Part shown: one piece after another, positions 1 through 24,064 of the stretch
How the letters are laid out: each line of letters starts with the position of its first letter
Numbering within the stretch: position 1 is the stretch's first letter
Source of the DNA: Saccharopolyspora phatthalungensis
GTDB taxonomy: Bacteria > Actinomycetota > Actinomycetes > Mycobacteriales > Pseudonocardiaceae
DNA: 64,000 nucleotides
Assembly: GCF_014203395.1 (NCBI RefSeq)
Contig: NZ_JACHIW010000002.1
Coordinates: 2,046,001-2,110,000 of the forward strand
Direction: 5' to 3'
Notes under the pieces: generated by a model
What the model was told of the DNA's origin: nothing
The model's input: only the letters and a program-made list of their open reading frames with translations
Databases searched by the model: none
Made by a program: the position numbers and the translations under genes

Positions 1-3000
1 TAAACGGTGCGGTACCGCACCACCGTGGCGTTGCCCGCCGCGGCCTCGTGGTGCCCCGAGGCGTGGGTGAACTGCTGGTCATGGCTACTCCCGCCGCCGC
101 CGGCGACATATGGGCCGGCGGCGACGGTCAGCATGCCCACATCCACACCCGGGCCCGCCGACACCGAGCCACTGACGTGCCGGGACGCACCGAAATGACT
201 CGTCACCGTCGTGCCCTCCGTACCGGCGGACACCACCGACGCACCCTCGATCGTCTCCAGATACGCCACTTCCCGCGCCACCGCGCGCATCTGCACGCGG
301 CGGATACGGGTCGGCAGCAACCGGGTCAGCGGAGTACCCAACGGCAACAACGCCTCCGAGGACACCCAACCCCGGCCCGCCGCCGCCTCCTGCGGGCTCA
401 CCGCCATCCTCGGCACATGGTGCTCAATGCCCCGCTGGCTCAGGAAACTCCGCAGACCGGCGCGCGCATGGCCGCCCAGCGAACCGAACTGCGCGATCAC
501 CTGGTCATAGATGCTCGGCAACCGGCCCGGCCTCATCTTCATCCGGACGGGCTTGCCCTGGTAGTGACCGCGCACCGTCTCGCGGACACGCGCCCCCTCC
601 AGCACCGACGAAGGCAACTCCGACGGCACCGGCACCGCACGACCATGCTTCACCGGCCGCAACCCGGTGGGCACACTCAACTCGACGCCGACCGGGCCGG
701 CGCCGGGATGATCATGCCCACCCACAATGGCAGTGCGACCGACGGCGTCTCCGTTATTGTCCACTAGGGACATGTGGAACGTCACCCGCACCTGCACCAC
801 GGTCGCACCGGCGTACTCGCTATCACCGCCGGGAGCCGGCTTCGCCGGCAACGCGATATTCACCGACTCCCGCAGCGTCTCGGCACGATCCGTGCCCCGG
901 CTCACCGCCGTCCCCGTCGGCACATCCACCATCCCCAAACCGAAAAGACCCGGCACCGCAGGGACGAAAAACACCTGCTGGTAATGCGGTTTGAAGCTCG
1001 AAGCAGTCCCCTCCCCCGACGCGAAGTCACGACCCGCGGCAGCCGAGGGCGCACCACCCTGCCCCCGCACGACAGCCCGCCCCACCCAGTCGAACTCCGC
1101 CCGCACCCGGATCACCGCATGCCCCACCCGGAACTCCCGGCCGTCCCCCAGCAAAGAACCGACCTCGTTGCGCACCGCATGCTCCACCGCGTCCATGCCC
1201 TCGCCCGCCGGCACCAGGTCCTTGGCCGCCGCCACCACACGGTCCGCGCCCACCGTCGCGCTGACTTGCCGCGCCGGACCCAACGACGCACCCCGCCGCA
1301 AATATCCCGGCAACCGCAACCGAGGCCGAGCAACGTCGCGGGGTTCACCGCCGCCAGCCTTGCCCCCAACCGCTCCGGCCAACGCATCGCCACGACCGTC
1401 GCCGACGTCGCGGTCGGGAATATCCGATGGCTCCGACCACCGCTCCGGCTCGGACCGTCCGGCCGGCTCAGACCACGCGGCCGACTCCTCGGACTGGGCC
1501 GAGTCGGACGAGTCGGCCTGATTTTCCGTGCCGCCAGGCCAGAACAGGCGGCGTTGTGTGCCGCCCCCGCCAGTGGGCGTGCGCGCATCCTCCGCCGAAC
1601 CGTCCTCCGGAGTCTGTTCCAACCTGGATGGTGCGGTCTTGCGCCGAGCACCAGGGCTTGACCGGTCGTCATTACGCGAGCTAGCCAACCGGTACAACCG
1701 CGCCAGCAAATCACGTCGCTCGCGCTCCATCGCATCATCAGCTTCGAAACTGGCCGCCTCCCGCACCGGGTCCACGACCGACAACTCATCACTGGGTCGC
1801 GGAAGGAACCCACCACCACCGCCACCCGCGTCGGCACCCGCACTCACGTTCGCGCTCGCAGCCCCCAACGCCCGCAAGTGTTGCCGCATTGCCTCCGCAG
1901 CCGCCCGATCACCCGGAGCACGCAACACCTGATGCGCCATCACCAACCGCACCGGCTCCGGTGCCGGACCACCCAACGCCGCATCGGCAGCAGCGAACAA
2001 CCCCGCCACCGCGCCGGCACCCTGCCGATTCGTCAACTCCCGCAACGCCAAATCAGCCGCCTCGATCAACCCGTGCATCTCCCGCACCGCTGCGTCATGC
2101 CGCACCTGCCGCACCCTCGCGATAGCAGCCGCCGCAGCCTGCGCCTCGTTCCGCAACGCCCGCACATCCACCTCACCCGACATCCCCTGCCGCGCGATGT
2201 CCGACCACCACTCCGCCCGCGCACGCAACTCGGGGTCATAAGACGCCGAAGCATCAACCAGCAGCCGCCGCAGAGAGCCCACCGATGCCGTCAACTCAGA
2301 AACCAACCGCTGCCGCTCACCCGCACCCACCGTCGGCACACCGCCACCCGAACGCGATGGCCCGGCAACCGTCGGCACACCGCCACCCGAACGCGATGGC
2401 CCGGCAGCCGGACCACGAGGCTCGCGGTTGACCTCCGCCACCCGCGCCTGGCCCCATTTCTTGCCCTTCCCGAACATCTCCGCCAACGACTCACCGCTGA
2501 GGCGCTCACCGGCGTCGCGGGCACGACGCACCTCCGCACGCGCCGCCTCCCGCTCCTGCTCGCCCTGATCCTGCCGGACCGTCGTACCACCCTCGCGCCT
2601 GACCTCCGCCAGCCGAGTCCAACCCCATTTCTTGCCCTTCCCGAACATCTCCGCCAACGACTCACCGGTGTGGTCCCTACCGGCCTCGCGGGCACGACGC
2701 ACCTCCGCACGCGCCGCCTCCCGCTCCTGCTCGTCCAGATCGTGCCGGGTCGGCGCACCACCCTCGTCCTCGATCTCCGCCAGCCGCGCCCGACCCCAGT
2801 CCCCCGTTCTTCCGAACCGCTCCCCCAAGACCGCACCGGTGTAGGGCCGACCCGCTTCGCTGGCACGACGCGCCTCCGCACGCGCTTCGGCCCGCACCTG
2901 CTCGTCCAGATCCTGCCGCGCAGTCGAACCATCCTCGCCGATCTCCGCCAGCCGATCCCGACCCCAAAACCGGCTCTTCCCGAACTTCTTCCCCAAGTCC

Positions 3001-6000
3001 GTAGCGGTATAGGGCCGACCCGCCTCACGGGCACGAAGCGCCTCCGCACGCCCCGCCTCCCGCAACCGGTCGTCCAACTCTTGCCAGGTCGCCGCGCCAC
3101 CATCGCCCGCGATCTCCGCCAGCCGATCCCGACCCCAGTCCCGGCCCTTCCCGAACTTCTTCCCCAAGTCCGTACCGGTATAGGGCCGACCCGCATCTCG
3201 GGCACGACGCGCCTCCGCACGCCCCGCCTCCCGCAACTGCTCGCGCGGATTCGCCTGTCCCCGATCCTCACCCCTACCGCGCTCGGTTCCCGGCGCCGCT
3301 GCTGCGTAGGGCCTGCCCTCGGCAAGAGGACGACGCGCCTCCGCACGCACCGTCGCCCGCTCCTGCTCGGCACCTTCACCGACCGAATCGCCTTCTCCCG
3401 CACCATCATCAGACATGCCCCCAGCAAAATCCGACAGCGCCGCTTGTTCCGGATCCGAATACCCGGCATCGTCTGACTCCACGGCCGCGCCCGGGTCCTG
3501 CCTATACGCCCTCGAAACGGCAAGCTCCGGCCCACCGACCGAGCGCACACCATCCCCAAAACCCGATGGCTCGGCTACTGCAACATCAGCCTCGTTCTCA
3601 ATCTCCGTCAGCCGGTTCAGGCCCCAGGTGCGGCTCTTGCCGAACTTCCTCCCCAACTCCATACCCGTATAGGGCATGCCCTCGTCACGGGCACGACGCG
3701 CCTCCGCACGCGCATCCGCACGCAACCGGTCGTCGAGACCCTGCCAGGTCGCCGCACCGCCCTCGCCCTCGATCTCCGCCAGCCGCGCCCGACCCCAGTT
3801 CCGGCTCTTCCCGAACCTCTTGCCCAAGTCCGTAGCGGTATAAGGCCGACCCGCGTCACCGGCACGACGCGCCTCCGCACGCGCGGCCTCCCGCTCCTGC
3901 TCATCCAGATCCTGCCGGGTCGTCGCACCACGCTCGCCGATCTCCGTCAGCCGCGCCCGACCCCAGTTCCGGCTCTTCCCGAACCTCTTGCCCAAGTCCG
4001 TAGCGGTATAAGGCCGACCCGCGTCACCGGCACGACGCGCCTCCGCACGCGCCTGCGCGGACAACCGGTCGTCCAGATGCTTCCGGGTCGTCGCACCACC
4101 CTCGCCCTCGATCTCCGCCAGCCGCATCCGACCCCAGCTCCGGCCCTTCCCGAACTTCTTCCCCAAGTCCGTAGCGGTATAGGGCCGACCCGCCTCACGG
4201 GCACGAAGCGCCTCAGCACGCGCATCCGCCCACTCCCGAAATGGCATTCCCGGCCCTGCGTCATCAAGCCCGCCGGGCCCAGCAAACGTCTGCGACGGCC
4301 CCTCACTGACCGAATCACCGTCTCCCGCACCATCGTCAGACGACTCTTCCTCAACATCCGACAACCCCCTATCACCAAATCGTTCCGCGCCGCCGCCAAG
4401 CCCCGCAAACCTCTGCGACGGGCCCTCACCAACCGAATCACTCTCTCCCGCACCATCATCAGACGACGAGTCCTCAGACGACTCATCATCCGACGAACCC
4501 GACTCCTCATCCGACGATGCCGACTCATCATCCGACGATGCCGAATCCTCATCCGAGGACCCCGAATCCTCATCCGAAACCGAATGCCCGGCATCCGCTC
4601 GCGGCTCGACGTCGGAGTCGTCCGCCTGCACACCCACGTCAGGAACACGCTCACGCGGCCCCGAAACATCAACCACCCCGTCGCGGCGCAGCCGCTCCAC
4701 CAGCGCCCTGGCGTCACTCACCCGCTTCCGCAATGCGGGCACATCCACACCATCGAGCCCGTGCCGACCCAACGTCGCCCACCAGTACTCAACCCGCTCT
4801 CGCAACCCAGGCAGGTAACCGTCCGGTGCACCAACCAAAGACCGTCGCAACGATGCGACCGACTCCCACAACTCGGCAACCAACCGTGTCCGCTCGCCCC
4901 CATCGACACCCCTCGCCGCGACGCCCTCCGAGGACCCAACGCCCGGCGAATCAGCAGCACCCAACGACGATCCCGCTCCAGCCTGGACAACCGTTCCCAC
5001 GGCGCGCGTATGCTCCTCCCGCTCCGCACCCGATTCCGGCCGGGCCGCAGCACTCTCGTTCCTGATTTCCCCAAGGCGTTCCAAACCCCAGCTCTGGCCT
5101 TTTCCGAACTTCTTCCCCAACTCCACGCCGCTGTAAGGCCTGCCCTCGTCCCGTGCACGACGCGCCTCCGCACGCGCCTCCTCCCGCTCCCGCTCCCGCA
5201 ACGCCGAAAAAGAAGCACCCTCGTCCTGGATCTCCCTAAGACGCTTCGCGGCCCAGTCCTTGCTCTTTCCGAACTCCTTCCCCAGTCGCGCAGAGGAGTA
5301 AGGCCTGCCCTCGTCCCGTGCACGACGCGCCTCCGCACGCGCCTCCTCCTGCACCCGCTTTTGCAACGCCGAAACAGTCACACCCTCTTCCCTGATCTCC
5401 CGAAGCCGCGCCGAACCCCACTTTTCACTCCTCCCGAACTTCTCCCCCAACGCCTTGCCGTTGTAGGGCTCACCCGCATCCCAAGCACGACGCGCCTCCG
5501 CACGCGCCTCCTCCCGCTCCCGCTCCCGCTCCTGTTCCAGCAACGCCGAGCGGCTCAAGCTGCCCTCGTCCCTGATCTCCCGAAGCCGCGCCGAACCCCA
5601 CTGTTCGCCCCTCCCGAACTTCTCCCCCAACGCCTTGCCGTCGTAGGGTTCACCCGCATCCCAAGCACGACGCGCCTCCGCACGCGCCTCCTCCCGCTGC
5701 ATCTCCAGCAACGCCGGGCGGCTCAAGAAGCCGTCCTCGTCCCTGGTCTCCCCACGCGCCTCCTCCCGCGGCTCCTGGTCACGCGACGTCGCACGAGTCG
5801 CGCCGATTTGTTCATTGAGCTCCGCAAGCCGGTCTTTACCCCACGTCGAGCTCTTTCCGAACTTCCATCCCAAGATCTCACCCGTGTACGGCCGACCCGC
5901 ATCCTGCGCACGACGCGCCTCCGCACGCGCCTCCGCACGCAGCAGCTCCTTGTCCCGCCAAGCCGACCGGGTCACCTCACGGTCTCCGCGGACTTCGGCA

Positions 6001-15000: not shown

Positions 15001-18000
15001 TCAAACCCACCCCACCGCAACGTCCCCGACCACACATCGACCCGCTCCCGCAACCCAGGCATGAAACTCTCCGGCGCACCCGCCAAAAGCCCCTGCAACG
15101 CATCCACCGACACCGTCAACTCGGAAACCAACCGCGACCGCTCAGCCGTGATCACATCCGCAGACGACGCGGCCTCCGGCGCCACCACGCCCGCCACATG
15201 GCCGCCCCGAGAACCCGACGCGTGGCCGGATGCGGAGGGCTCACCCGCATCAACAGCACGATGCGGCTCGGGCAATTCCCGCTGGCGCACATCATTCTCA
15301 TTCGCGATCTCGGCAAGCCGCGCGCGTCCCCACCTTTCGCCCTTCCCAAACTTCGCCCCCAACTCCCTGGTCTTGTAGGGCTTACCCGCATCGCGCGCAC
15401 GACGCGCCTCGGCCCGCCCTGCCTCCCGCAGCTGCTCATCCAATTCCTGCCGACTCGCACCGTCCTCATTCTTGATATCCGCAAGCCGCGCGCGTCCCCA
15501 CGTTTCGCTCTTCCCGAAATTCTCCCCCAATTTCACGGCGGTGTAAGGCTTTCCCGCATCGCGCGCACGACGCGCCTCCGCCCGGCCCGCCTCCCGCAAC
15601 TGCTCCTCCAAATCCTGCCGACTCACACCGTCCTCGGCCCTGATCTCCGCAAGCCGCGCCTTGCCCCATTTCACTCCCCGTCCGAACTTTTTCGCCAATG
15701 TCTCGGCCGTGTAGGGCTTACCCGCGTCGTGCGCACGACGGAACTCCTCGCGCCCTGCCTCCCGCACCTGCTCATCCAAATCCTGCCGACTCGCGCCGGC
15801 CTCATCCTTGATCTCCCCGAGCCGGGTATGGCCCCACCATTCGCCCTTCCCGAACTTCGCCCCCAGCGCCGCGCCGGTGTACGGCTCACCCGCATCACGA
15901 GCACGACGCGCCTCCTCCCGCGCCTCCTCCCGCAACTCATCCGGATCCGCCGCGACGCTCTCGCCTTCGTTACCCTTGATCTCCCGAAGCCGCTCCAGAC
16001 CCCACCAATCGCTCTTCCCGAACTTCGCCCCCAGCGCCGCGCCGGTGTACGGCTCACCCGCATCACGAGCACGACGCGCCTCCTCCCGCGCCTCCTCCCG
16101 CACCACCTCCGAAGCCTTTAACCGCTTCCCGCTCGCATCACGCTCGTTCGTGATCTCCTGAAGCCTTCTCAAACCCCAGGTTTGGCTCTTCCCGAACTTC
16201 TTTCCCAACTCCTTGCCGGTGTACGGCTTCTCCGCATCACGAGCACGGCGCGCCTCCGCTCGCGCCGCCTCCTGCAGCTGCGCCGCATCATCGGGCCTAT
16301 CGGGCGTGCCATCGCGCCCTGCGGACTGGCGCGCGGCATCTTCATCGACCGAATCGTCATCAACATGTCCCGGCTCGCGGCCAGCATCAGCGGAAAGCGT
16401 TTCGCCAGCACCGCCGTCACCGTCCGCACCAGACACCGATGGGTCCGACCCACCCACACCCCACTCCCGCTCCAAAGCCACCGGATCAAACGACCACGTC
16501 CCCAGATCACCCGCGAGCTCGGAAGCGCCCGGATCAAGCCCCCATGCCATCGGAATATCCGTCGCCTCAGCGCTCATACCACCGAACTGACCGCTTTCCG
16601 GGACTTCCCCAAACCCCGGAATCTCCGCCAATGGATCCGGGCCCGCTCCGGCGCGAACGCCCAGGCCCCTGCCCTCCGTACCTAGACGGGCCGCGGACTC
16701 GTCGGCATTACCGCCCCGCACCCCCGCCTCAGACACAGCCACGAACTGTTGCGCCGCGCTCTGCACCCGCTCGACCAACGCCCGGGCATCTCCCGCCCGC
16801 TTGCGCAAATCCTCCACCGCAGCACCATCAAACCCACCCCTCCCCAACATCCCCGACCACACCGCAACCCGCTCCCGCAACCCAGGCATAAAGCTCTCCG
16901 GCGCACCCACCAAAAGCCCCCGCAACGCATCCACCGACGCCGCCAACTCAGAAACCAACCGCGACCGCTCAGCCGCAATCACATCTACAGGTGACACGGC
17001 CTCCGACAACGCCACATCCGCCACATCACCGTCCGGAGCATCCGACGGATCGTCGGCTCTCCCGATTTCCGCACGCCCCGCCGCGCCCGATGTCCAGCCC
17101 TCGTTGACCGTCTCGCCCTCGTCCCTGATCTCCGCAAGTCGCTGCCGACCCCACCTTTCGTTCTTCTCAAACTGCTGGGCCAACGCGATACCGGACTCGT
17201 AGGGCTCACCCGCATCACGTGCACGACGCGCCTCCGCACGCCCCGCCTCCCGCAACTGCTCCTCCAATTCCCGACGGCTCGCACCGCCCTCATCACTGAT
17301 CTCCGCAAGACGCTGCCGACCCCACCATTCGCCCTTCCCGAACTTCTCCCCCAACGCCCTGCCGGTGTACGGCTTGCCCGCATCACGAGCACGACGCGCC
17401 GCCTCCCGCCCCGTCTCCCGCAACTGCTCGCCCAATTCCTGACGGGTCGGACCGCTCCCATCCCCGATCTCCGCCAGGCGCGTCAAGGCCCACGTTTGGC
17501 TCTTCCCGAACTCCTGCGCCAACGCCCCAACGGAGTAGGGCTCTCCCGCGTCGCGAGCACGACGCGCCTCCGCACGCCCCGCCTCCCTCAACTGCTCGTG
17601 GGCGTCAATCCCGCCACTCTCGTCCCTGATCTCCCGAAGCCGCTGCAACCCCCAGCTTTCGCTCTTCCCGAACGCCTCTCCAAGTTTCGCGCCGGTGTAA
17701 GGCTCTCCCGCCTCGTGAGCACGACGCGCCTCCGCCCACGCCGCCTCGTATTGCTGCCTGGGCTCGTTCGATGCCTGGCCGCTCGCAGCATCGTCAGCCG
17801 TCACCTCCGCAAGCCGGTCCCTAGCCCAACTTCCGCCCTTCCCGAACTTCGCCGCCAACTCCGTGGTGCTGTAGGGCTCACCCGCATCGCGAGCACGGCG
17901 CACCTCCACTCGCGCCGCCTCCCGCGCCTGCTCCAGATCACCCGCGCCGACCTCATCGTTGATCTGACGGCTCGCACCGTCTTCCTTTCTGACCTCCGCA

Positions 18001-21000
18001 AGCCGGTCCCTAGCCCAACTTCCGCTCTTCCCGAACTTCGCCGCCAACTCCGTGCTGCTGTAGGGCTCACCCGCATCACGAGCACGACGCGCCTCCACTC
18101 GCGCCGCCTCCCGCACCTGCACCGGGTCTTCCACCGGCCGCTGACTAGCACCGCCCTCCTTGATCTCCGCCAGCCGCCCTCGACCCCACCTTTCACTCAT
18201 CCCGAACTTTCGTCCCAAAGCCTTGCCGTTGTAGGGCCGACCCTCATCCCGAGCACGACGCGCCTCGACCCGGGCAGCCTCTCTCAACTGCTCCGCTTCG
18301 TGGGACTCCTCGGCCGTGCCATCGCGCCCCGCAGGCTGGCGCGCGGCACCTTCATCGACCGCACCGTCATCATCACGCCGCCGCTTACGGCCACCACCCG
18401 AAACCGTTTCGCCAACACCACGGCCGCTGTCCGCAGCAGACACCGACAGCCCCGCCATTCCTACGTCCAACCCGGCACCGTGCGATTGCTCAATGGCCGA
18501 CGGGTCAAACCACCACGCCCCGTCATCCGCCCAGTTAGCGACGCCCGGATCAAGCCCCCACGTCATCGATTCATCCGCAGCCTCACCGCTCATGCCACCG
18601 AACTGACCGCCGTCCGAAAATTCCCCAAACCCGGGAATACCCGCAAACGGATCTGGTCCTGCTCCGGCGTGAATGCCGAACCCTGTTCCCCCGCTACCGA
18701 GGCGGGTCGCCAATTCCCGGGCGAACCGCACGGCATCGGCAACGCTGACGTCGCCGGCCCTGGCCGCGACCAAAGCCACCACGTCGTCCAGCGACACATC
18801 CGCATCGCCCCGCGCCAGAGCCACTACATCATGCGTGCCCTGCACGATCCGCTCCGCCACATCACGCGGCCCGCCGACCGACTGAGCCCGCTCGACCTCC
18901 CGACGCAGATCCGCGTCCGTCCACTCCGCCACGCCGGTCGAAGTCGGTTGTTCCTCGACCTGCGCGCCGTCCGGAACAGCAGCCGACGAACTCGCCAAAG
19001 CATCCAGCCCGGCCGGCGCCTCAATCCGGCCCGGCCCGCCGACCGGGCGGGGACGAGACCCATCGGCAGCGAACCGCATCCACCGCGGACCACGCCGGCC
19101 ACGCCCCGGCATCAACACAACAACATCACGACCCAATTCCCGCGCCACCTCCGACGCCTGGCCCGACGACATCACACCGGGACTCGAACCGTCCCCCGAC
19201 TCCAACACCACCGGACCCGCGCCAGCATCGCCAACACGACCACGCACGAATTCCACAACCCCACCGCCGGAGGCCACATCCACCGGCACCGACACCCGCA
19301 CCGCACCCGCACCCGCACCCGCACCCGCACCCGCACCCGACACCGCACCACCCGACGCCACAGCCCCAGACGACTCCGGCAACACCGACGAGCCCGGCGA
19401 GACCGTCGACTGCGGCCCACCATCACCCACACGAGCCGAATCCGCATTCCCCGCCACCGAACCCGCACCAGAACCCGGCCCCGCAGACGCAGCCGGAACG
19501 GCGGTTCCACCCCACACAGACCCATGCCCCGGCAACGTGGCCCCGCTGTCCGAACTCGGGGCCGCACCAGGCGCCGTGGACGTCGTCCCCGACATCACGG
19601 CATCCGAAGACGCACCAGGCACATCAGTGGCGCCCGTCGACGGCTTGTCCACCACCGAGCCAGGCACCTGAGTGGCGGGCCCCGCCGCCTGCGCACCCTC
19701 CAGCGGGGCATTCGGGTTGTCCACACCAGAGGGACCAGTGCCCGTGTGGTCGTTCGGCGAGTCGACACGGGAATCGCCAACCGTCACACCACCAGCAGAG
19801 CCCACCGCACCACCCGGACCCGACGAACCCGACCCCACCGCCGGATTCCCGGTCGCCGCAGCCGCACCATCCGCACCCGACGAGCCAACACCCGCGTGAT
19901 CACTGCCAACAGCTCCGCCATACGCCGGCGATTCACCCACCCGAGAGCCCTCGGCCGTCACACCACCATCAGAAACCGACGAACCATCCCGATAGCCGCC
20001 AGGACTGTCCATAGACGACGAGCCGCGAGTGGCCAGCTCGCCACGCTGCGTCGAATCGCCTTGGGAATGACCTGCCGTCACACCATCGTCAGCGACCGGC
20101 GAACCATCCCGGCCGGGCGAACCCGTCCCCGGCACCGGCGCCGAATGCCCCACCGAATCGGACGAATGCCCGACCGCATCGCCACGACTGTCCACACCAG
20201 ACGATTCTGGAACGCCGTGGTGGGTATCGGCATTCGGGCTGAAGGCCGGTGGCGGCGAGGCGGCGTGGGAGCCGCCCACCCCGGCCGCATCCTCCAAGCC
20301 CGGCGAATGGCTGCTGACCAGGTCGTGCCCCTGGGGTGGGCTGTAGGGTGGCGGCGGCGTGCCCGGCCTGCCCTGACCCGCCAGCGCACCGGGCACCGCT
20401 CCATCAGCCTCGCGCCACGACGCCACCCCGCTCGGCGTCTCAAATACACCGGCATTGGCGTCCTGCCCCAATGCGGCACCGGCATCCGCATCCCTGGGCC
20501 CACCACCCGGCGTGGCCACGCCGCCAGCGGGCGAAGCAATACCGGTATGCGGTACCGAGTTATGAGCTGAGCGGCTCGGCGTCGCAGCACCCGAGGACGG
20601 AGACATGCCGGCGGCATTTTCCTTGGCCACCGCACCATCTCCGCGTTCCGGTGCACCAGACGCGTCGCCAAGCGGCGCCTTTTCGGTGCCGGAGCCAGCA
20701 GGCGGGAGAGTCGACGGCACCGTAACGCCCGACCCCGCCGAACCCGGTGCTTGGCCGGTGGCGATTGCGCCGGCACCAGGCGCACGCACCCCGGATTCCA
20801 CATCGGGCAGGCCATTCGGGGAGCCGGGCTTTTCGCTGTGGGTATACGAGAAGCCTGGCTTCTCGCTCGTCTGCGATCCCTCGCCCTTCTCCGACCCGGA
20901 ATCGGTCGTCAACTCCTCCGACGTGTCGGTGCCGGTGTCGGTGCTGCCGGAATTCTTTTCCTCGTTGGCGGCCTCCCGGGCGCGGCCCGCCGGGGTCAGC

Positions 21001-22037
21001 TCGCCCCGCACCGCCAGGCCCGCCAGGTTCCCGACGCCTGAACCCACCGCTTCGGACAGCCCGGCGGTGAAGGAGAACGGGTTCCACTGCGCTCCCTGGC
21101 CGCTGATCGCGCCGTACCCGGCCTCGCCGAGCATTTCGGTCAGGCCCTCTTCCAGGGATTCGCCCAGGCCATGGCCGAAGCGGGCCACCCACATCGCCCG
21201 CACCGACATACCCGTGTAATCCTCTAGGTTCTTGGAGACCACATCGGCGAATTTCGCCATCGAGGCCACCGGGTACTGCTCCGCATGCTCCTCGGCCACC
21301 TGCCGCGCCGCCGTCTCCAGCAGCTTGGCATCGACCTCATCACCCAGACCCCGCACCAAAACCTTGGTGATCGCGTTGCCGACCACATTGCCCAGCGCCG
21401 ACAAGGGCGCCGCCAGCAGCCCGCTGAACGAGCCGACCCCCACCGCCATTTCCGACATCGCGGCATCCCACTTATCGCGCGTTCCCAGCGCGAACTGCAA
21501 ACCCTGTGCCCCAGCATCCATGACCACTTGCAGCCCGACGCCCACGATCTGACCCATCGCCAAATGCATGAACAACTGACCCCACCACCGCGACAACAAA
21601 AACCGCATTACCGCAAACCGCGCCGCCAGCCACGCCATACTCGCCCCAGCAGTAGGGCCCGCCATCGCCACCGCCCAAGCGATCTCCGCCAAAAGCAGCA
21701 GCAGGCCCCCCACTGTCACAAACTTCAAATACTGCACCTGCAACGCCAGATTCCGCACAAACTGCGCCAATTCCCGCAACCCCGCGCCACCGGATTCCAG
21801 CATTGGACCAAACGCCTCCAACCGCTGCGCGAACCGGTCCGCCGCCTTCCCCGAAAACTCACCCCGCACCCGCCCCACCACATCCCCCACCACCGGACCC
21901 AACGTCTCCACCGTCGCCGCATCCGACTCCAACCGCTCCGCCACCGCGAACAACGCATCCTCATCCGCATCCGTCATGTCCTCGCCGGTCAATACCTGAA
22001 AAAGCCGCCTCACCTCCTCCGGCACCAGTAAGGACAC
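1..22037 (-). CDS. Giant WXG100-like/CpnT-like protein with about 54 HTH-like repeats, C-terminus beyond window
   Basis: At least 7,345 codons on the minus strand, still open at the left edge. I confirmed the frame by translation at about 0.1, 2.4, 6.2, 12.8, 18.4 and 21.9 kb. The GTG at 22037 gives MSLLVPEEVRRLF, like starts of CpnT-type N-terminal domains; ATG 21978 is an alternative. Residues 1-320 form a helical domain with a hydrophobic stretch (about 95-180), as in WXG100-like N-termini of type VII-linked polymorphic toxins. Residues 330-970 are a Ser/Gly/Pro/Asp linker. Residues 1250-6530 hold eight arrays of HTH-like repeats (consensus ARRARDAGEPYTG, then LGxKFGKSxxWGRxRLAEI), separated by recurring spacers: a RIVQGTHDVVALARGD block (four copies), a MTWGLDPG motif (seven), a three-helix block with MPGLRERVEVWS (nine) and a GRKRRR-type basic motif (five). 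From residue 6900 on the sequence looks beta-rich. No toxin domain is visible. Export and DNA binding are inferred. Confidence 0.85.
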   Translation of the reverse strand, partial: MSLLVPEEVRRLFQVLTGEDMTDADEDALFAVAERLESDAATVETLGPVVGDVVGRVRGEFSGKAADRFAQRLEAFGPMLESGGAGLRELAQFVRNLALQVQYLKFVTVGGLLLLLAEIAWAVAMAGPTAGASMAWLAARFAVMRFLLSRWWGQLFMHLAMGQIVGVGLQVVMDAGAQGLQFALGTRDKWDAAMSEMAVGVGSFSGLLAAPLSALGNVVGNAITKVLVRGLGDEVDAKLLETAARQVAEEHAEQYPVASMAKFADVVSKNLEDYTGMSVRAMWVARFGHGLGESLEEGLTEMLGEAGYGAISGQGAQWNPFSFTAGLSEAVGSGVGNLAGLAVRGELTPAGRAREAANEEKNSGSTDTGTDTSEELTTDSGSEKGEGSQTSEKPGFSYTHSEKPGSPNGLPDVESGVRAPGAGAIATGQAPGSAGSGVTVPSTLPPAGSGTEKAPLGDASGAPERGDGAVAKENAAGMSPSSGAATPSRSAHNSVPHTGIASPAGGVATPGGGPRDADAGAALGQDANAGVFETPSGVASWREADGAVPGALAGQGRPGTPPPPYSPPQGHDLVSSHSPGLEDAAGVGGSHAASPPPAFSPNADTHHGVPESSGVDSRGDAVGHSSDSVGHSAPVPGTGSPGRDGSPVADDGVTAGHSQGDSTQRGELATRGSSSMDSPGGYRDGSSVSDGGVTAEGSRVGESPAYGGAVGSDHAGVGSSGADGAAAATGNPAVGSGSSGPGGAVGSAGGVTVGDSRVDSPNDHTGTGPSGVDNPNAPLEGAQAAGPATQVPGSVVDKPSTGATDVPGASSDAVMSGTTSTAPGAAPSSDSGATLPGHGSVWGGTAVPAASAGPGSGAGSVAGNADSARVGDGGPQSTVSPGSSVLPESSGAVASGGAVSGAGAGAGAGAGAVRVSVPVDVASGGGVVEFVRGRVGDAGAGPVVLESGDGSSPGVMSSGQASEVARELGRDVVVLMPGRGRRGPRWMRFAADGSRPRPVGGPGRIEAPAGLDALASSSAAVPDGAQVEEQPTSTGVAEWTDADLRREVERAQSVGGPRDVAERIVQGTHDVVALARGDADVSLDDVVALVAARAGDVSVADAVRFARELATRLGSGGTGFGIHAGAGPDPFAGIPGFGEFSDGGQFGGMSGEAADESMTWGLDPGVANWADDGAWWFDPSAIEQSHGAGLDVGMAGLSVSAADSGRGVGETVSGGGRKRRRDDDGAVDEGAARQPAGRDGTAEESHEAEQLREAARVEARRARDEGRPYNGKALGRKFGMSERWGRGRLAEIKEGGASQRPVEDPVQVREAARVEARRARDAGEPYSSTELAAKFGKSGSWARDRLAEVRKEDGASRQINDEVGAGDLEQAREAARVEVRRARDAGEPYSTTELAAKFGKGGSWARDRLAEVTADDAASGQASNEPRQQYEAAWAEARRAHEAGEPYTGAKLGEAFGKSESWGLQRLREIRDESGGIDAHEQLREAGRAEARRARDAGEPYSVGALAQEFGKSQTWALTRLAEIGDGSGPTRQELGEQLRETGREAARRARDAGKPYTGRALGEKFGKGEWWGRQRLAEISDEGGASRRELEEQLREAGRAEARRARDAGEPYESGIALAQQFEKNERWGRQRLAEIRDEGETVNEGWTSGAAGRAEIGRADDPSDAPDGDVADVALSEAVSPVDVIAAERSRLVSELAASVDALRGLLVGAPESFMPGLRERVAVWSGMLGRGGFDGAAVEDLRKRAGDARALVERVQSAAQQFVAVSEAGVRGGNADESAARLGTEGRGLGVRAGAGPDPLAEIPGFGEVPESGQFGGMSAEATDIPMAWGLDPGASELAGDLGTWSFDPVALEREWGVGGSDPSVSGADGDGGAGETLSADAGREPGHVDDDSVDEDAARQSAGRDGTPDRPDDAAQLQEAARAEARRARDAEKPYTGKELGKKFGKSQTWGLRRLQEITNERDASGKRLKASEVVREEAREEARRARDAGEPYTGAALGAKFGKSDWWGLERLREIKGNEGESVAADPDELREEAREEARRARDAGEPYTGAALGAKFGKGEWWGHTRLGEIKDEAGASRQDLDEQVREAGREEFRRAHDAGKPYTAETLAKKFGRGVKWGKARLAEIRAEDGVSRQDLEEQLREAGRAEARRARDAGKPYTAVKLGENFGKSETWGRARLADIKNEDGASRQELDEQLREAGRAEARRARDAGKPYKTRELGAKFGKGERWGRARLAEIANENDVRQRELPEPHRAVDAGEPSASGHASGSRGGHVAGVVAPEAASSADVITAERSRLVSELTVSVDALQGLLAGAPESFMPGLRERVDVWSGTLRWGGFDGAAVEDFRKRVADAQALVERVSDGVRSLFVPAADVPVPEAGVRGGDEGESASAGAAVADSGEFGGMTANSADIQMTWGFDPDAAELMEGLETWSFDTGAFEREWGSGPSMDAAEAVVGSVGESAADASERSRLVAELAASVDALQGLLVGAPESFMPGLRNRVEVWSATLERRGFDDVELGDLGKRVADARALVERVRGEAGSYRVGGQFQGGGLDSVTSDGEHSDSDAVGLALSDEDSDSDSGNGVGETAPIGGSAGRKRGRADESVDEGAERRPAGPDGTAESSDAQRVREAARVEARRGRDAQEPYTGKALGGKFGKSADWGLARLAEIRDAEDVRRKVADQQEKAEARAVARRALEAGTPYSAKELGETFGRGVKWGASRLVEIRSEGALRQHDSVEQEVQEAARAEAQRALGAGRPYSAEQLGKKFGRGVKWGSSRLTEIGSEDSASRRDLVEQELAQVREQARAEARRAREAGQPYSGTELGKKFGRSRTWGKDRLAEIKKDAGASQQALRGAAPGGVPAAVTGGALPVSDSSGVAGWTGSDLRRAVGLAHAVGGPRDVGARIVQGTHDVVALARGDLGVSLDDVVALVAARVGEFGRDEAVRFSRELAARLGSGGTGFGVSAGAGPDPLADLPGFAEGADGSQTGGMAAESADVPMTWGLDPGAVEWGGGRPLWSTDPASIEQSQAAGWDAAGLLEFGADSDRGVGETAAVGDSRKRGHVEDDAVDEGAARRPAKPGGRRTLVGPAEQRESGRAEARRARDAGEPYNGKTLGEKFGKSERWGWSRLAEIKDESDVLQQALDEHELEAAREEARRARDAGMPYTGEELGTKFGKSGVWGRRRLAEIRAEGGASRQDLDEQLRESARVEARRARDAGEPYSGGTLGAKFGKSEKWGSTRLREIRNEPGASVAEPEAPGQLLRESARAEARRARDAGEPYTGGALGRKFGRNERWGSTRLREIRNEPGASVAEPDDVEQMRAAARVEARRARDAGEPYTGGALGAKFGKGEWWGLSRLREIREEDAESQREVADSEQLREAARVEVRRARDTGMPNTAETLANKFGRGLRWGNKRLAEIRDEGDVRSPDSKEQEREAARVEARRARDEGKPYTALVLASKYGRHESWGRARLDEIKVEGGASRKDLEEQLREAAREEARRARVRREPYSGVELGAKFGKSERWGRLRLAEIRGVGDASGSQQGDGAGAVASEAMSAINVVAAERSRLVSELAVSVEALRGLLAGAPEGYMPGLRERVDVWSEMVPRGGFDHVALEDLRKRVNDARALVERVRGELPSQVMPVSEVPADPDPLAGLPEFAEVAEIADRGELGDATDELADIPMTWGFDPTAVELAEEGLSTGSFDPADVARERGSSSGVEEDAADAAVESADVDAAERERLVSELALSVDELGRLLPGAPTGYLPGLRERVEMWSGTLARGELNAVALGDLRKRMDDARALVERVRGEVGSYRVPEVFQGSGPDSATSRLAEINDEDAPDWQELREQARAEARRARDAREPYTGLALGEKFGRGVKWGASRLAEIRDEDALTWRDEREQVREAARAEARRARDAGQSYSGKELGKKFGKGHSWGKDRLAEIKNDAGASQQVLEGPAPGGVPAAVTGGELPVSGLSGVAAWSGSDLRNAMEHAHAVGGPHDVGARIVQGTHDVVALARGDLGVSLDDVVALVAARVGEFGRDEAVRFSRELAARLGSGGTGLGVSAGAGPDPLADLPGSAEVADGGQTAGMTAESADFADIPMTWGFDPDADELAMDLGTWSIEPMVLPEWNFGSDVGESRADAADPAASSADVDAAERSQLVSELTVSVDTLRELLAGAPDGLMPGLRGRIEVWSGTLGRSGFDGAAVEDLRKRVNDARALVERVSRELEPHRLPHQDSDGGVGETALVGGSSGRKRRRANDSVDEGAAHRSAGPGGTGEQSEAQRVQEEAREEARRARDAGKPYSGKELAKKFGKSETWAFARLREIKEEGGADRQDLEEQLREAARVEARRARDAGEPYHSKALGEKFGKSQSWGWMRLSEITEEGEATGPVWDAREREREAARQEARRARDAGNPDSGATLGAKFGKSGAWGLDRLREIRDEGGASRQDLDEQEREAARAEARRAWDAGEPVTGPQLANRFDKSVKWAEARLREVRSEGRVGEPKSQAPTQLRSQARVEARRAQEAGTPYSSTTLAQKFGRSQAWGWARLAEIRDDDAANRQGVIEAARQEARRARDAGKPHTGLELAEQFGMSERWGHTRLTEIRDADGLNRQDVDEQEKEEARAEARRARDAGQPYTATTLGEKYQRGVKWGKARLAEVKDVDGAQPAAGEQEREAARVEARRALDAGERYTGKALGQKFGMSERWGQARLAEIKDDSGATRQYSREQEREAARAEARRARDAGEPYSGATLGVKFGKSHGWGQARLAEIKDDGVVSRQDLDEQEREEARAEARRARDAGKPYSSGALGEKFGRSDSWGWARLAEIKDEGESSRKELDARDREEARAEARRARDAGDPYNARALGERFQRGWKWGATRLAEIGNVGDAAGSGSGSTAAGDLTVDVSGGAATAERSRLVSDLAESVDALRGMLSGAPQGYMPQLRGRVELWTETLRRGGFDGAALGDLRKRVDGARALVERVRGEVGSQFVPPAEAGVRGSADGASVGVTGWTESDLRREIERARSVGAPHAVAMRIVQGTHDVVALARGDAGVSLNDVVALVAAKAGGVGHEDPVRFSRELAARLGTGGTGLAVQAGAGPDPLADLPGFDDGADSGQAASAAAETPDIPMTWGLDPGEAEYAADWSNWTIDSASLDPAAILADDIATWSFNPMSPVWDAAPAGNAADVVMASTAPAAFQVSDASESSGVDSSGRDAAVVEVSDEDSNRDFSEEDNDQAVSSDEDSDRDVAETAPIGESSGRKRGRVADSPDDDTERRPARRRSTATRLADVDRLREEARAEARRADDVDEPYTGETLGRKFGKGSTWGRHRLAEVRGDREVTRSAWRDKELLRAEARAEARRAQDAGRPYTGEILGWKFGKSSTWGKDRLAELNEQIGATRATSRDQEPREEARGETRDEDGFLSRPALLEMQREEARAEARRAWDAGEPYDGKALGEKFGRGEQWGSARLREIRDEGSLSRSALLEQEREREREEARAEARRAWDAGEPYNGKALGEKFGRSEKWGSARLREIREEGVTVSALQKRVQEEARAEARRARDEGRPYSSARLGKEFGKSKDWAAKRLREIQDEGASFSALREREREEARAEARRARDEGRPYSGVELGKKFGKGQSWGLERLGEIRNESAAARPESGAEREEHTRAVGTVVQAGAGSSLGAADSPGVGSSEGVAARGVDGGERTRLVAELWESVASLRRSLVGAPDGYLPGLRERVEYWWATLGRHGLDGVDVPALRKRVSDARALVERLRRDGVVDVSGPRERVPDVGVQADDSDVEPRADAGHSVSDEDSGSSDEDSASSDDESASSDEESGSSDDESSEDSSSDDGAGESDSVGEGPSQRFAGLGGGAERFGDRGLSDVEEESSDDGAGDGDSVSEGPSQTFAGPGGLDDAGPGMPFREWADARAEALRAREAGRPYTATDLGKKFGKGRSWGRMRLAEIEGEGGATTRKHLDDRLSAQARAEARRAGDAGRPYTATDLGKRFGKSRNWGRARLTEIGERGATTRQDLDEQEREAARAEARRAGDAGRPYTATDLGKRFGKSRNWGRARLAEIEGEGGAATWQGLDDRLRADARAEARRARDEGMPYTGMELGRKFGKSRTWGLNRLTEIENEADVAVAEPSGFGDGVRSVGGPELAVSRAYRQDPGAAVESDDAGYSDPEQAALSDFAGGMSDDGAGEGDSVGEGAEQERATVRAEARRPLAEGRPYAAAAPGTERGRGEDRGQANPREQLREAGRAEARRARDAGRPYTGTDLGKKFGKGRDWGRDRLAEIAGDGGAATWQELDDRLREAGRAEALRAREAGRPYTATDLGKKFGKSRFWGRDRLAEIGEDGSTARQDLDEQVRAEARAEARRASEAGRPYTGAVLGERFGRTGDWGRARLAEIEDEGGAPTRHDLDEQEREAARAEVRRAREAGRDHTGESLAEMFGKGKKWGWTRLAEVRREGGTTVRQDQGEQEREAARAEVRRARDAGERLSGESLAEMFGKGKKWGQARVAEVNREPRGPAAGPSRSGGGVPTVAGPSRSGGGVPTVGAGERQRLVSELTASVGSLRRLLVDASASYDPELRARAEWWSDIARQGMSGEVDVRALRNEAQAAAAAIARVRQVRHDAAVREMHGLIEAADLALRELTNRQGAGAVAGLFAAADAALGGPAPEPVRLVMAHQVLRAPGDRAAAEAMRQHLRALGAASANVSAGADAGGGGGGFLPRPSDELSVVDPVREAASFEADDAMERERRDLLARLYRLASSRNDDRSSPGARRKTAPSRLEQTPEDGSAEDARTPTGGGGTQRRLFWPGGTENQADSSDSAQSEESAAWSEPAGRSEPERWSEPSDIPDRDVGDGRGDALAGAVGGKAGGGEPRDVARPRLRLPGYLRRGASLGPARQVSATVGADRVVAAAKDLVPAGEGMDAVEHAVRNEVGSLLGDGREFRVGHAVIRVRAEFDWVGRAVVRGQGGAPSAAAGRDFASGEGTASSFKPHYQQVFFVPAVPGLFGLGMVDVPTGTAVSRGTDRAETLRESVNIALPAKPAPGGDSEYAGATVVQVRVTFHMSLVDNNGDAVGRTAIVGGHDHPGAGPVGVELSVPTGLRPVKHGRAVPVPSELPSSVLEGARVRETVRGHYQGKPVRMKMRPGRLPSIYDQVIAQFGSLGGHARAGLRSFLSQRGIEHHVPRMAVSPQEAAAGRGWVSSEALLPLGTPLTRLLPTRIRRVQMRAVAREVAYLETIEGASVVSAGTEGTTVTSHFGASRHVSGSVSAGPGVDVGMLTVAAGPYVAGGGGSSHDQQFTHASGHHEAAAGNATVVRYRTV
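2330..2407 (-). repeat. 39-bp tandem duplication
   Basis: Two adjacent copies of a 39-bp unit encode the 13-residue repeat PSRSGGGVPTVAG between the last HTH unit and the last three-helix block. Confidence 0.9.
2440..4230 (-). repeat. HTH-like repeat array VIII (about 10 units, one degenerate)
   Basis: The last array before the beta-rich region. Nine clear turns lie near 4140, 3968, 3800, 3634, 3146, 2970, 2806, 2632 and 2466, and a degenerate unit near 3295 keeps the ARRPLAEGRPYA start but loses the KFGKS core. A 250 bp linker (3330-3590) splits the array. Units at 3.80 and 3.97 kb are almost the same. Confidence 0.8.
4440..4585 (-). repeat. Acidic Ser/Asp/Glu tract
   Basis: About 48 residues made almost only of S, D, E, G and A (units such as SGSSDEDSASSDDE and SASSDEESGSSDDE), in frame between arrays VII and VIII. 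The DNA shows a degenerate 21-bp period. Tracts of this kind are common in eukaryotic nuclear proteins as acidic or CK2-type regions; whether that applies here is unknown. Confidence 0.6.
5050..6120 (-). repeat. HTH-like repeat array VII (6 units)
   Basis: Six units with turns near 6026, 5850, 5606, 5426, 5265 and 5095. Linkers are rich in EREREEARAEARRA, which suggests long helical connectors. The two units at 5.4 and 5.6 kb are near-identical in DNA. Confidence 0.85.
6200..6220 (-). other. Basic NLS-like motif GRKRGR (copy 5)
   Basis: Encodes SSGRKRGRVADS in frame, before array VII. A second basic run (ERRPARRRS) follows about 12 residues later, giving a bipartite-like arrangement. A sixth position near 16.37 kb keeps the SVDEDAAR tail but has lost the basic core. 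Confidence 0.45.
7330..9180 (-). repeat. HTH-like repeat array VI (11 units)
   Basis: The longest array: eleven units with turns near 9060, 8895, 8715, 8545, 8380, 8218, 8055, 7885, 7720, 7550 and 7380. Several units depart from the KFGKS core (KYQRG and RFQRG forms near 8055 and 7380; the 8218 unit has EQFGM), which may mark weak or non-functional units. Confidence 0.85.
9232..9252 (-). other. Basic NLS-like motif GRKRRR (copy 4)
   Basis: Encodes SSGRKRRRANDSVDEGAAHR in frame, before array VI. Confidence 0.5.
9831..10014 (-). repeat. 184-bp perfect long repeat, copy A
   Basis: By reading, identical base for base to 13128-13311. It encodes part of the VVALARGD spacer (RELAARLGSGGTG region). 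Perfect identity at third codon positions inside an otherwise diverged repeat family points to recent gene conversion or duplication. Confidence 0.85.
10170..10540 (-). repeat. HTH-like repeat array V (2 units)
   Basis: The shortest array, with turns near 10390 (GRGVKWG) and 10205 (GKGHSWG). It closely resembles the end of array III, and both are followed by the same VPAAVTGGxLPVS linker, so the two neighbourhoods look like copies of one ancestral module. Confidence 0.85.
11410..12750 (-). repeat. HTH-like repeat array IV (8 units)
   Basis: Eight units with turns near 12645, 12475, 12305, 12135, 11955, 11785, 11610 and 11445. Three adjacent units share the linker RLREIRNEPGASVAEP or a close variant, a local tandem amplification. 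The residues after KFG differ from unit to unit (KSE, RNE, KGE, RGL, RHE), as expected if specificity sits there. Confidence 0.85.
12823..12839 (-). other. Basic NLS-like motif SRKRGH (copy 3)
   Basis: Encodes DSRKRGHVEDDAVDEGAARR in frame, before array IV. Confidence 0.45.
13128..13311 (-). repeat. 184-bp perfect long repeat, copy B
   Basis: Partner of the copy at 9831-10014. Similarity continues on both sides at lower identity. Recombination between the two copies would excise about 3.3 kb and, because the distance is a multiple of three, keep the reading frame. Confidence 0.85.
13480..14140 (-). repeat. HTH-like repeat array III (4 units)
   Basis: Four units with turns near 14035, 13870, 13695 and 13515. 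Two of the four have the GRGVKWG variant instead of KSxxWGR, so the presumed recognition helix varies between units. The array is bounded by a basic GRKRGR motif at 14.2 kb and by the VVALARGD spacer at 13.3 kb. Confidence 0.85.
14210..14230 (-). other. Basic NLS-like motif GRKRGR (copy 2)
   Basis: Encodes GRKRGRADESVDEGAER in frame, before array III. It shares the acidic SVDEGA tail with the other copies. Confidence 0.45.
15290..16290 (-). repeat. HTH-like repeat array II (6 units)
   Basis: Six units with turns near 16185, 16010, 15845, 15680, 15505 and 15345. The two units at 15.85 and 16.0 kb share nearly all of their DNA, including the stretch encoding GEPYTGAALGAKFGK. A three-helix spacer block and a Ser/Asp linker flank the array. 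Confidence 0.85.
17110..18290 (-). repeat. HTH-like repeat array I (7 units)
   Basis: The most N-terminal array of the giant protein (residues about 1250-1643). Seven units of 165-185 bp are recognisable by the KFGKS-type turn, near 18195, 18020, 17835, 17665, 17500, 17330 and 17160. Two units near 18.0 kb are almost identical (ELAAKFGKSGSWARDRLAEV), which suggests recent duplication. Confidence 0.85.
18374..18391 (-). other. Basic NLS-like motif GRKRRR (copy 1)
   Basis: Encodes GGRKRRRDDDGAVDEGAARQ in the giant frame, just before array I. The core fits the classical monopartite K-[KR]-x-[KR] nuclear-localisation pattern. Nuclear targeting is inference only; a DNA-contacting or flexible basic patch is also possible. 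Confidence 0.5.
19303..19338 (-). repeat. Hexanucleotide tandem repeat (6 x 6 bp), Ala-Gly
   Basis: Six perfect copies of gcaccc on the plus strand encode an alternating Ala-Gly run in the low-complexity linker. The period is a multiple of three, so copy-number slippage would keep the giant frame open. Confidence 0.9.
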
Positions 22038-22094
22038 GAAAAAACACCCAATCAGATCACGCTTCGGACTTGGCCTAAACGGCCATCGTGCAGG

Positions 22095-22130
22095 TATTAT
22101 GAGGCAGCCGAGCCCGTGCACCGAACCGTT
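22095..22130 (-). promoter_or_regulatory. Possible promoter of the giant gene
   Basis: On the minus strand a CATAAT element lies about 18 nt after TTCGGT and about 65 nt before the chosen GTG start. The spacing suits a sigma-70-type promoter, but the -35 element is weak. Confidence 0.25.
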
Positions 22131-22875
22131 CACCCCGCCCCGACAGCGATCATGCGCGTTCAGCCGCCAAAAGCGGGAAATTCGGGCAACACACGGACCT
22201 CTCGCTCCCCGAGACCGAACGCACCCAGGACGCCGACCTCAGGGCGGACGCGACCCCGATTTTCCCAGGTCGCCGAAAACTCGCGCCCGGCAACGTATTC
22301 GGTCCGAGTTCATTCCGACACGTCCCGTCACCCCGCGCGCCGTCATCCGCCGCCTGACCATCCGATTGACCCGAGAACATCCACATTGCGGCTTTCGCCG
22401 TCTGCCCGTCGCCACCGTCCACAACAGAGCCTCGACCACCCGCCGGCACGACCGTGCACCGAGTTTTGGCACCGTACGGGCCTACTTGGCGCTGCACCGG
22501 GTGTTCGCCGCGCGTCCGCCTCCTTGGCACTTGCACTAAAGGGCCAGCTTCGATGCTCGAACTGACTACCTTCCATGGCTCTCGCGATGACGCTCCTACG
22601 CTGCGCCCATGCGGATGGATTCATTGCTGCTTTCAGCCCCGCTGGGGATCACCTTGAGACCGCCCCCTGCCCATTGTCCGCCACACCTGCCTCTCGCGGC
22701 GTGACGGCCCGGACCGAAATTGAATCTTGTCTATCGTGCCGGTCGGTAATCCTCGTCAATTGCTCGGGTAATCGGCGCCTTGTTTTCGCAGGCGTTGATC
22801 GGCTGCGGCATCCGCAGCATTCCGTGAACCAACGAACCCAAAGGCCCGCTGGAGGACGAAAGTAGCAGGTCTCCC
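22131..22875. other. 745 bp without a convincing gene
   Basis: Open frames exist on both strands, but their translations lack recognisable domains and have unbalanced Arg/Pro-rich composition. I see no coding signal I can support and no RNA gene. It separates the giant gene from the polyketide synthase remnant and may be decayed sequence. Confidence 0.5.
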
Positions 22876-23829
22876 CCTCGATGCTTCCGACATCTGCTGA
22901 CCGGTACCTCCGCCGCCGTCGCGTCGGGCAGGCTCGCCTACTTCTACGGTTCGGAAGGCCCGGCGATCACGGTCGACACGGCCCAGTCATCCTCATTGGT
23001 GGCACTGCATCTGGCCTGCCGGTCGTTGCGAGCACGCGAATGCACGGTGGCGTTGGCCGGGGGTGTCTCGGTGCTGTCCACCCCCGGTGTGTTCGTGGAA
23101 TTCAGCAGGCAGCGGGCGCCGGCGCCGGATGGGCGCTGCAAGGCGTTCTCCGCGACCGCAGACGGGACAGCCTGGGCCGAGGGCGCCGGTGTCCTCGTTT
23201 GGAGCGGCTCTCCGATGCGGTGCGCGGTGGGCACCGCGTCATGGCCGTGATTCGTTCCTCGGCGGTCAATCAGGACGGCGCGAGCAACGGACTTACCGTG
23301 CCCAATGGTTCGGCGCGGGAACGCATGTTCCGCCAAGCGCTTTCGGCAGCTCGGCTGGGCCGGCGGACGTGGACATGGTCGAGGCCCACGGCACCGGCAC
23401 CCGGGTCGGCGACCTCGTCGAGGCGCCGAGCGGCTGGAGCGGGCGAGGATGGCGCCGACCGGAATCGTCCTGCTCGACACCTACCTGCCCACCAGCGACG
23501 AGATCGCGGCGATCCTGCCCGAGCTCATCGGGGACATGTTCGAGCCGCCAGACGGAATCGCCCACCTCGAACAGCTCCGGCTCACCGCGATGGGACGGTA
23601 TTTCCGGATGTTCGGCGACTGGAACCCGAATCCGGTTTCCGCGCCGAAGCTGTTCGTGCGGCCGGGCGACCCGCTTCGCGAACACCATCGAGAAGTCGCC
23701 TGGCGGGCCGGGTGGCCGCTGCCCCACCATTCGGCGGATGTTGGCGGGAACCACTTCACGATGATGAGCGAGGGGGCCGCGACGACGGCCGAGGCGATTT
23801 CGCGATGGATCGACGCGCTCCGGCATTGA
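22876..23829 (+). pseudogene. Type I PKS remnant: KSQ loading-domain fragment fused to thioesterase fragment
   Basis: From about 22885 one frame reads [20 protein letters not shown] and then [20 protein letters not shown], a ketosynthase active-site region with Gln in place of Cys, the hallmark of decarboxylating KSQ loading domains. Around 23195 the match moves to a second frame ([17 protein letters not shown]) and near 23350 to a third ([12 protein letters not shown]). From about 23430 a fourth segment ([20 protein letters not shown] to [18 protein letters not shown], stop at 23829) matches the end of a modular PKS terminal thioesterase. Everything between KS and TE is missing, so this looks like a polyketide assembly line collapsed by deletion and then frameshifted. 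It cannot make product. Confidence 0.85.
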
Positions 23830-24064
23830 AACGTCCTAATGTCCGCTGGGCGGAATGGGAATTTCGGTCCGATCGGTGCAACAGCCCCCGCTGTCTGCTT
23901 TATTCGCGATGCTCTATTCGCGCGGCGTGGGACGACTGCGGCGTGCGGCGACTTCCGTTATCGGTGAGGTGATTTCAGATTCTCGGTTTTCCGGCGACGC
24001 TTCTGGGGAAATGCCGATTTCGCCACTTTTGAAACGATTCTTTAGGCGTCGAGAAGTCCGCGCG

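Follow-up and report, generated by a model that had tools for sequence, protein, structure and literature searches.

CpnT of Mycobacterium tuberculosis has an N-terminal WXG100-like region that is followed by a separate effector part; it is not known to carry a repeat array and is far smaller than the protein considered here. The repeats of transcription activator-like effectors (TALEs) are two-helix units of 33–35 amino acids (aa) with a two-residue code. According to Zhang et al. (2012, PMC3482391), a WXG-type N-terminus, large size and several paralogues per genome are found in the giant and polymorphic toxins of type VII secretion systems (T7SS); Saccharopolyspora spinosa, for example, has one such toxin in nine copies. 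Here we describe a giant open reading frame (ORF) of Saccharopolyspora phatthalungensis, found in a stretch of 64,000 nucleotides (assembly GCF_014203395.1, contig NZ_JACHIW010000002.1, positions 2,046,001–2,110,000) that we call the window. It joins a WXG100-type N-terminal domain to arrays of units resembling helix–turn–helix (HTH) domains, whose third helix appears to change under selection.

The ORF lies on the minus strand, as do all its features given below in window coordinates, and begins at 22133 with a GTG that opens the longest frame and is taken as the putative start. The window holds its 5′ 7,377 codons (1..22133; counted in whole codons 3..22133) and the frame is open leftward. 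With the adjoining genome sequence a single open frame of 8,796 aa is obtained, whose stop lies about 4.26 kb beyond the left edge of the window. An earlier note on this DNA had described one frame of more than 7,300 codons and had asked for the full gene and its C-terminus to the left; the frame is confirmed, and the gene has been followed to its stop.

We suggest that this protein is one of a group of effector-like giants that would be exported by a T7SS and whose HTH arrays would bind DNA via helix-3 positions that diversify under selection. We hold this reading tentatively and give it close to an even chance.

Units and their predicted fold

With the pattern W[GA]..R[LV].[ED][ILV] we recognized 53 intact units in the giant ORF and a 54th that is visibly degenerate. 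When gaps of at least 90 residues are taken as array boundaries, nine arrays result, with 7, 6, 4, 8, 2, 11, 6, 4, and 5 units. Thus, the previously given count of about 54 stands, but not the division into eight arrays. Arrays 1–5 are located at 17115..18302, 15294..16292, 13473..14144, 11403..12743, and 10176..10490, array 6 at 7338..9170, and arrays 7–9 at 5052..6128, 3588..4238, and 2421..3248. The spacing of the units is mostly 52–63 residues. A gapless alignment that omits two of the 53 units, and so comprises 51, has a mean column identity of 66%. As the core codons are in addition under purifying selection across the units of the genome (see below), the units are not a product of chance.

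The unit is predicted to adopt a three-helix HTH fold, as had been supposed from its sequence. The model of a single unit (8844–9002, in array 6) has a mean predicted local distance difference test score (pLDDT) of 88.1 with 40 of the 53 residues at 90 or above, and places helices at residues 2–20, 27–33, and 38–52. In the models helices 2 and 3 of the three-helix core are joined by a short turn, as is required for HTH domains. The fold neighbours are mainly DNA-binding HTH domains (LexA, DeoR, Lrp/AsnC, FadR, and sigma factors), with weak scores. A string of three units from the same array (7503–7997) was modelled with a pLDDT of 72.6 and a predicted template modelling score (pTM) of 0.41, so that the relative orientation of the units is undefined. 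A coiled-coil or disordered state of the units is not supported by the models, although the linkers are of low confidence.

None of the HTH families of Pfam is matched above cut-off by the window protein (HTH_11, 22.4 bits, cut-off 25). A related array from another genome (G014) passes three of them when taken as a whole, namely Sigma70_r4 (33.5 bits, cut-off 24.1), HTH_11 (29.9, cut-off 25), and HTH_10 (25.1, cut-off 23.1); no single stretch of it passes any HTH cut-off alone. Among sequences of solved structures the top matches were C2H2 zinc fingers with the stretch EKPY.C.ECGK.F. We reject a relation to these proteins as the likeness is short and local and Cys and His are absent from the unit consensus.

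Diversification of the units

The examined stretches of the genome contain 643 unit hits, of which 535 fit a gapless 53-residue pattern and were compared; at least 108 were left out as not fitting it. All but two of the 535 units are distinct, and 466 distinct residue quadruplets occur at positions 38, 39, 42, and 43. Within positions 8–49 the entropy is highest at 42 (3.50 bits), 38 (3.44), 39 (3.42), and 43 (3.20), followed by 28 (3.17). W40 and R44, which are both part of the search pattern, are constant, and L30, which is outside the pattern, varies once. Among the units of the window ORF L30, W40, and R44 are invariant and F34, L45, and E47 nearly so; positions 28, 38, 39, 42, and 43 have 2.9–3.1 bits, and linker positions 1, 2, and 4 equal helix 3.

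The earlier note had located the variability at the start of helix 3 in an otherwise fixed motif. Within the fold this holds; however, genome-wide the linker positions 1–4 reach 3.3–3.7 bits and, in the last part of helix 3, position 50 (3.23 bits) lies slightly above position 43. It had also named beforehand two computational outcomes that would speak against its proposal, units predicted as coiled coil or disordered and an entropy peak outside the recognition helix. Neither is observed, with the reservation that concerns the linkers and position 50.

To compare amino-acid-changing with silent differences (pN/pS), each unit was paired with its nearest neighbour, chosen on codons outside the class of positions tested. 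The ratios have to be read with the limits that pairs share units, that units recombine, and that the codon usage is biased, which may inflate all of them. At helix-3 positions 38, 39, 42, and 43 the ratio is 1.68 (bootstrap 1.51–1.86), compared to 0.26 in the core, 0.34 at helix-1 positions 16, 17, 19, and 20, 0.57 in the loop, and 0.69 at positions 33, 36, and 37. Judging from these codon comparisons, the four helix-3 positions are likely diversifying under selection. Absolute pN within the fold also peaks in this class (0.47, next 0.32). Ratios above one are found as well at positions 28, 29, and 32 (1.69), at 10, 13, and 14 (1.54, 1.09–2.29), and at 46, 49, and 50 (1.27). In the closest 41 pairs further classes exceed two relative to their own silent change (46 and 49, 2.96; 28, 29, 32, and 33, 2.32), each from few changes. 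The highest ratio in another pairing was that of linker positions 1–7, which we attribute to misalignment.

Selection for changed recognition would give such a pattern, whatever is recognized. We take the residues with which LexA reads its operator to align with positions 39, 42, and 43; the exposed positions were assigned from the helix register and from this alignment rather than from coordinates. Positions expected on the DNA-facing side rank with those that change most rapidly, and the units therefore likely bind DNA. Several points weigh against the reading as a whole. The excess of amino acid changes is not limited to helix 3, as some helix-1 and helix-2 positions are also above one; protein binding might explain selection on the exposed face just as well; and 40 of the 44 related ORFs of the genome (see below) are without the C-terminal region of the window ORF.

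The best of the alternatives, which we nevertheless regard as unlikely, is that the units serve as helical spacers and form a repetitive stalk of three-helix elements by which the length of the protein is set, with no role in nucleic-acid binding or the like, and that the exposed variation reflects relaxed constraint. Repeats commonly serve as stalks in giant exported proteins, and the elevated ratios at positions 10, 13, 14, 28, 29, and 32 as well as the weak scores of the fold search would fit. On the contrary, relaxation alone should bring pN/pS near 1 and not to 1.5–1.9, unless codon bias lowers pS, and the helix-1 positions 16, 17, 19, and 20 would not be expected to be as constrained as they are. 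In addition, the core keeps the features of an HTH, and the related array as a whole scores above the Pfam HTH cut-offs.

Alternatively, the units might bind proteins, with a diversifying surface on an HTH scaffold whose targets would be variable receptors on competitors or predators. Protein binding is within the capacity of HTH folds, and the residue alphabet at positions 38, 39, 42, and 43 is broad and includes Trp, Ala, and Glu. We consider this quite unlikely because the most diversified positions are those that HTH domains use for DNA and because the folded part is net basic (residues 8–51 average +2.7, linkers −1.8). Moreover, a basic motif (loose pattern, typically RKRGR.DDS.DEGAARR) precedes 55 of the 126 arrays of the related ORFs and is found in only 14 of 1,531 overlapping 90-residue windows elsewhere in them.

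The earlier note took the variation to be that expected of modular DNA recognition. For the binding of DNA by the arrays, which we prefer, such recognition in the sense of TALEs is not apparent: the variable positions use a broad alphabet, and the modelled string leaves the orientation of the units undefined.

Paralogues in the genome

The genome of the window comprises 8.54 Mb in six contigs. The following counts cover the stretches of it that were examined, and other stretches may hold more. At least 44 ORFs possess the shared N-terminus, the units or the C-terminus, including fragments and seven ORFs that run off a contig end. From stop to stop they amount to 166,225 aa or 5.84% of the genome. 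The 643 unit hits are all in these 44 ORFs, and 637 of them are in the 33 ORFs that have three or more units; the largest numbers per ORF are 62, 61, and 53, the last being that of the window ORF. Contigs C1, C3, C4, C5, and C6 each end inside such an ORF, and therefore the assembly likely broke at these ends. This family had been missed by the earlier note, as had the relatives with single units or other array types and the C-terminal part of the giant, about 1,850 aa that are mostly outside the window.

The C-terminal region of the giant begins at aa 6951 (window 1..1283) and is also present in three other ORFs of the genome and in two examined ORFs of a sister genome (G006). The C-terminal parts differ among the 44 ORFs, and several have other long C-termini. 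Thus, a shared N-terminus is combined with an exchangeable C-terminus, as is typical for polymorphic toxins. Some of the ORFs may be decayed or may be donors. For the 37 ORFs of which both ends are known, as much as 2.5 kb of downstream sequence was searched with tblastn, and the seven open at a contig end were left out. For 28 of the 37 no same-strand homology was found there, and frameshifts were rejected as the cause of all short copies. Downstream of ORFs o1551 and o1741 homology starts within 10 bases of the stop codon, as a frameshift would give; about 850 bases beyond o7410 lies an ORF with units, possibly a continuation of it; and the remaining six reach the beginning of a next copy or come close to it.

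It could be argued that the many copies are a sequence store, in which shorter copies consisting of N-terminus and array recombine with a small number of complete genes (the known C-terminus is present in four) and so maintain the diversity of these genes, the target of the array being secondary; the rarity of the C-terminal region, the 28 ORFs without homology downstream and the fact that for 47% of the 535 units the nearest relative is in another ORF would agree, yet we find this improbable, more so than the two alternatives above, as the core codons are under purifying selection across the units and as several ORFs have other long C-termini, so that calling them incomplete may be wrong.

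With Pfam the long C-terminal parts of four paralogues gave nothing useful beyond PF25547 and one match below cut-off. One paralogue of this genome (L038, G000 C2:1913720-1922731) carries, after its arrays, eight copies of the repeat PNPQVDVPLLEWPASSGPV, which are 25 residues apart.

Domains of the giant protein and indications of export

The type VII-type N-terminal domain noticed at first sight is borne out by Pfam: the WXG100_2 domain PF25547, characteristic of type VII substrates, is matched at 21615..21971 with 38.2 bits (cut-off 27). It is part of a conserved N-terminal region of about aa 26–379 (20997..22058). With aa 1–381 as query the genome gave 41 matching places, of which some are partial and one is very weak. 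Besides this domain and the arrays the ORF contains a long Gly/Ser/Pro-rich stretch. Two short modules are interspersed, RLVSEL...SVDSL with 8 matches and IVQGTHDVVALAR with 4. The basic motif stands directly before five arrays: RKRRR...ARQ before array 1 (18324..18389; like a nuclear-localization signal or an AT-hook by eye), RKRGR...ERR before array 3 (14160..14225), RKRGH...ARR before array 4 (12771..12836), RKRRR before array 6 (9183..9248), and RKRGR before array 7 (6150..6215). We take the motif to resemble both a nuclear-localization signal and an AT-hook. No toxin domain or C-terminal family was recognized by Pfam, which gave no match at all in aa 4713–8796, and NCBIfam found nothing, including no toxin domain, in aa 1–4711 and 7379–8796.

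Type VII secretion genes are present: a search aimed at EccB returned two EccB genes. One of them, at 10.9 kb of contig C1, is on the same strand as a paralogue (C1:2-5167) and about 5.7 kb from it. Between both are a WXG100 match below cut-off (21.6 vs 27.3), a YbaB gene, and others without clear family. In another species (G004) an array-bearing giant (C3:176036-204316; L139, L140) contains the papain-fold glutamine deamidase toxin domain PF15644 (59.7 bits, cut-off 24.1) and three DnaJ stretches recognized by Pfam; its own WXG100_2 match is below cut-off (21.4, cut-off 27). Among the scanned part of the genes neighbouring the giant no immunity-like protein was found.

Two plus-strand genes of the window lie beyond the start of the giant. 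The ORF upstream of it (22881–23972) has a short match to the C-terminal domain of ketoacyl synthases (Pfam, 39 residues) and is likely the remnant of a polyketide synthase. At 25716–28073 a gene similar to the beta subunit of N,N-dimethylformamidase is found (PF20254, 321.8 bits).

Distribution and relatives

A typed consensus unit searched at 1e-3 matched nine of 31 mostly congeneric genomes, that of the window many times and the other eight once or twice each. A unit profile at 1e-5, with no more than 27 candidates scored in each genome, matched 27 of the 249 genomes searched in the family, 21 of them once. Among 396 genomes of the phylum (17 candidates scored per genome) the only match was the window's own. 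No unit was found in 589 candidate stretches of a collection of genome contigs, for which a single peptide pattern was used. An origin from phages or plasmids was rejected as none of 152 candidate stretches in viral contigs contained the units and plasmids and phages gave no match.

Giant ORFs of 5,857–12,488 aa with unit matches occur in genomes G045, G059, G143, G180, G014, and G004, which also show tandem units of another type with lower scores. The giant of G014 (C2:4907319-4932242; L137, L138) has a divergent HTH array and, by eye, J-like and papain-like repeats. The sister genome G006 has 26 places with the N-terminus as well as the C-terminal region, and only isolated units in its examined ORFs. 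One of its giants (C1:1766-28273; L081, L082) has the same N- and C-terminal regions and a match to TcdA/TcdB glycosyltransferases below cut-off (19.3 vs 23.6). Seven single-match ORFs of other genomes (L012, L014, L148, L149, L150, L152, and L155) were compared with Pfam. Four of them are DUF2637 proteins (PF10935) above cut-off, L148 as the best-scoring single match (E 1.5e-12) is just below it (22.4 vs 22.8), and L149 and L155 match no Pfam family. Because the examined giants of G006 combine the same N-terminus with isolated units and because a similar HTH ends the DUF2637 membrane proteins, single HTH units were probably the origin of the arrays.

In G045, which is grouped in another genus of the same family, an ORF of 11,795 aa has a similar N-terminus by eye and seven units with a spacing of mostly 56 residues. 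Six of these are nearly identical and differ mostly at positions 39, 42, 43, 44, and 49, in addition at 6, 10, 27, and 35. Several changes at the five former positions involve two or all three bases of the codon. The first unit diverges from the rest at many positions; since unit 6 shares its Ser42-Glu43, exchange between the units is possible. We regard the array of G045 as a second, younger one.

A search of 5.77 billion proteins gave six matches to an 11-unit query and two to a two-unit query. Proteins P0002–P0006 are 96.8–100% identical in the aligned part to ORFs of the window genome, and P0007 and P0001 are 88.9% and 51–55% identical to examined ORFs. P0008, a partial hypothetical protein from Saccharopolyspora erythraea, is identical to the G045 ORF over the first 105 of its 110 residues, and the seven-unit array is accordingly assigned to this species. 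Of P0001–P0007, all but P0005 likely come from other assemblies of the window genome or from near relatives.

Discussion

Taken together, we propose that the giants leave the cell, likely by type VII secretion, and would act as effectors on another cell. An array might hold DNA by many contacts at once, with a small gain in affinity and some sequence preference from every unit. The specificity for DNA would drift fast by selection on helix 3 in arrays that probably grew from single units.

A bolder and doubtful version would be that the giants are new modular DNA readers that arose independently of TALEs. Positions 38, 39, 42, and 43 of each unit would then set a changeable base preference, up to 14 units would read an extended site, the RKRGR...ARR motif would be a nuclear-localization or minor-groove signal, and the target would be the DNA of a competitor or of a eukaryotic predator.

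Giant WXG-type proteins as such are already known. In titles and abstracts of the literature matches listed we found no description of such HTH arrays, nor of 643 HTH-like units in one genome with a diversifying, presumably DNA-facing helix. Should the arrays bind DNA, one small DNA-binding module would be available in a large natural set of variants, with which the recognition rules of the fold could be tested directly, and the question arises what use a hold on DNA is to an exported protein. Should they bind proteins instead, they would be an unusual diversifying recognition system of bacteria.

The giants have in common with the T7SS polymorphic toxins the WXG-type N-terminus, the large size, the paralogues, a T7SS gene near one paralogue, and PF15644 in the giant of another species; in contrast, the passages on HTH in Zhang et al. 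(2012, PMC3482391) name one toxin domain ‘Tox-HTH’ and not HTH arrays, and the window protein has no toxin domain that we could recognize. The DUF2637 membrane proteins (PF10935) carry a unit-like HTH near their C-terminus, but one unit only, and are smaller. C2H2 zinc fingers differ by their paired Cys/His ligands, which the unit consensus does not have. With CpnT the giant shares a WXG100-like N-terminus that is followed by a separate part; it is distinguished by its repeat arrays and by its far larger size. TAL effectors and TALE-like proteins are likewise bacterial proteins with long tandem repeats and variable residues at fixed positions. Unlike theirs, the units described here mostly follow each other at 52–63 residues, have three helices, and vary at four positions at least, with a broad alphabet in place of a restricted code.
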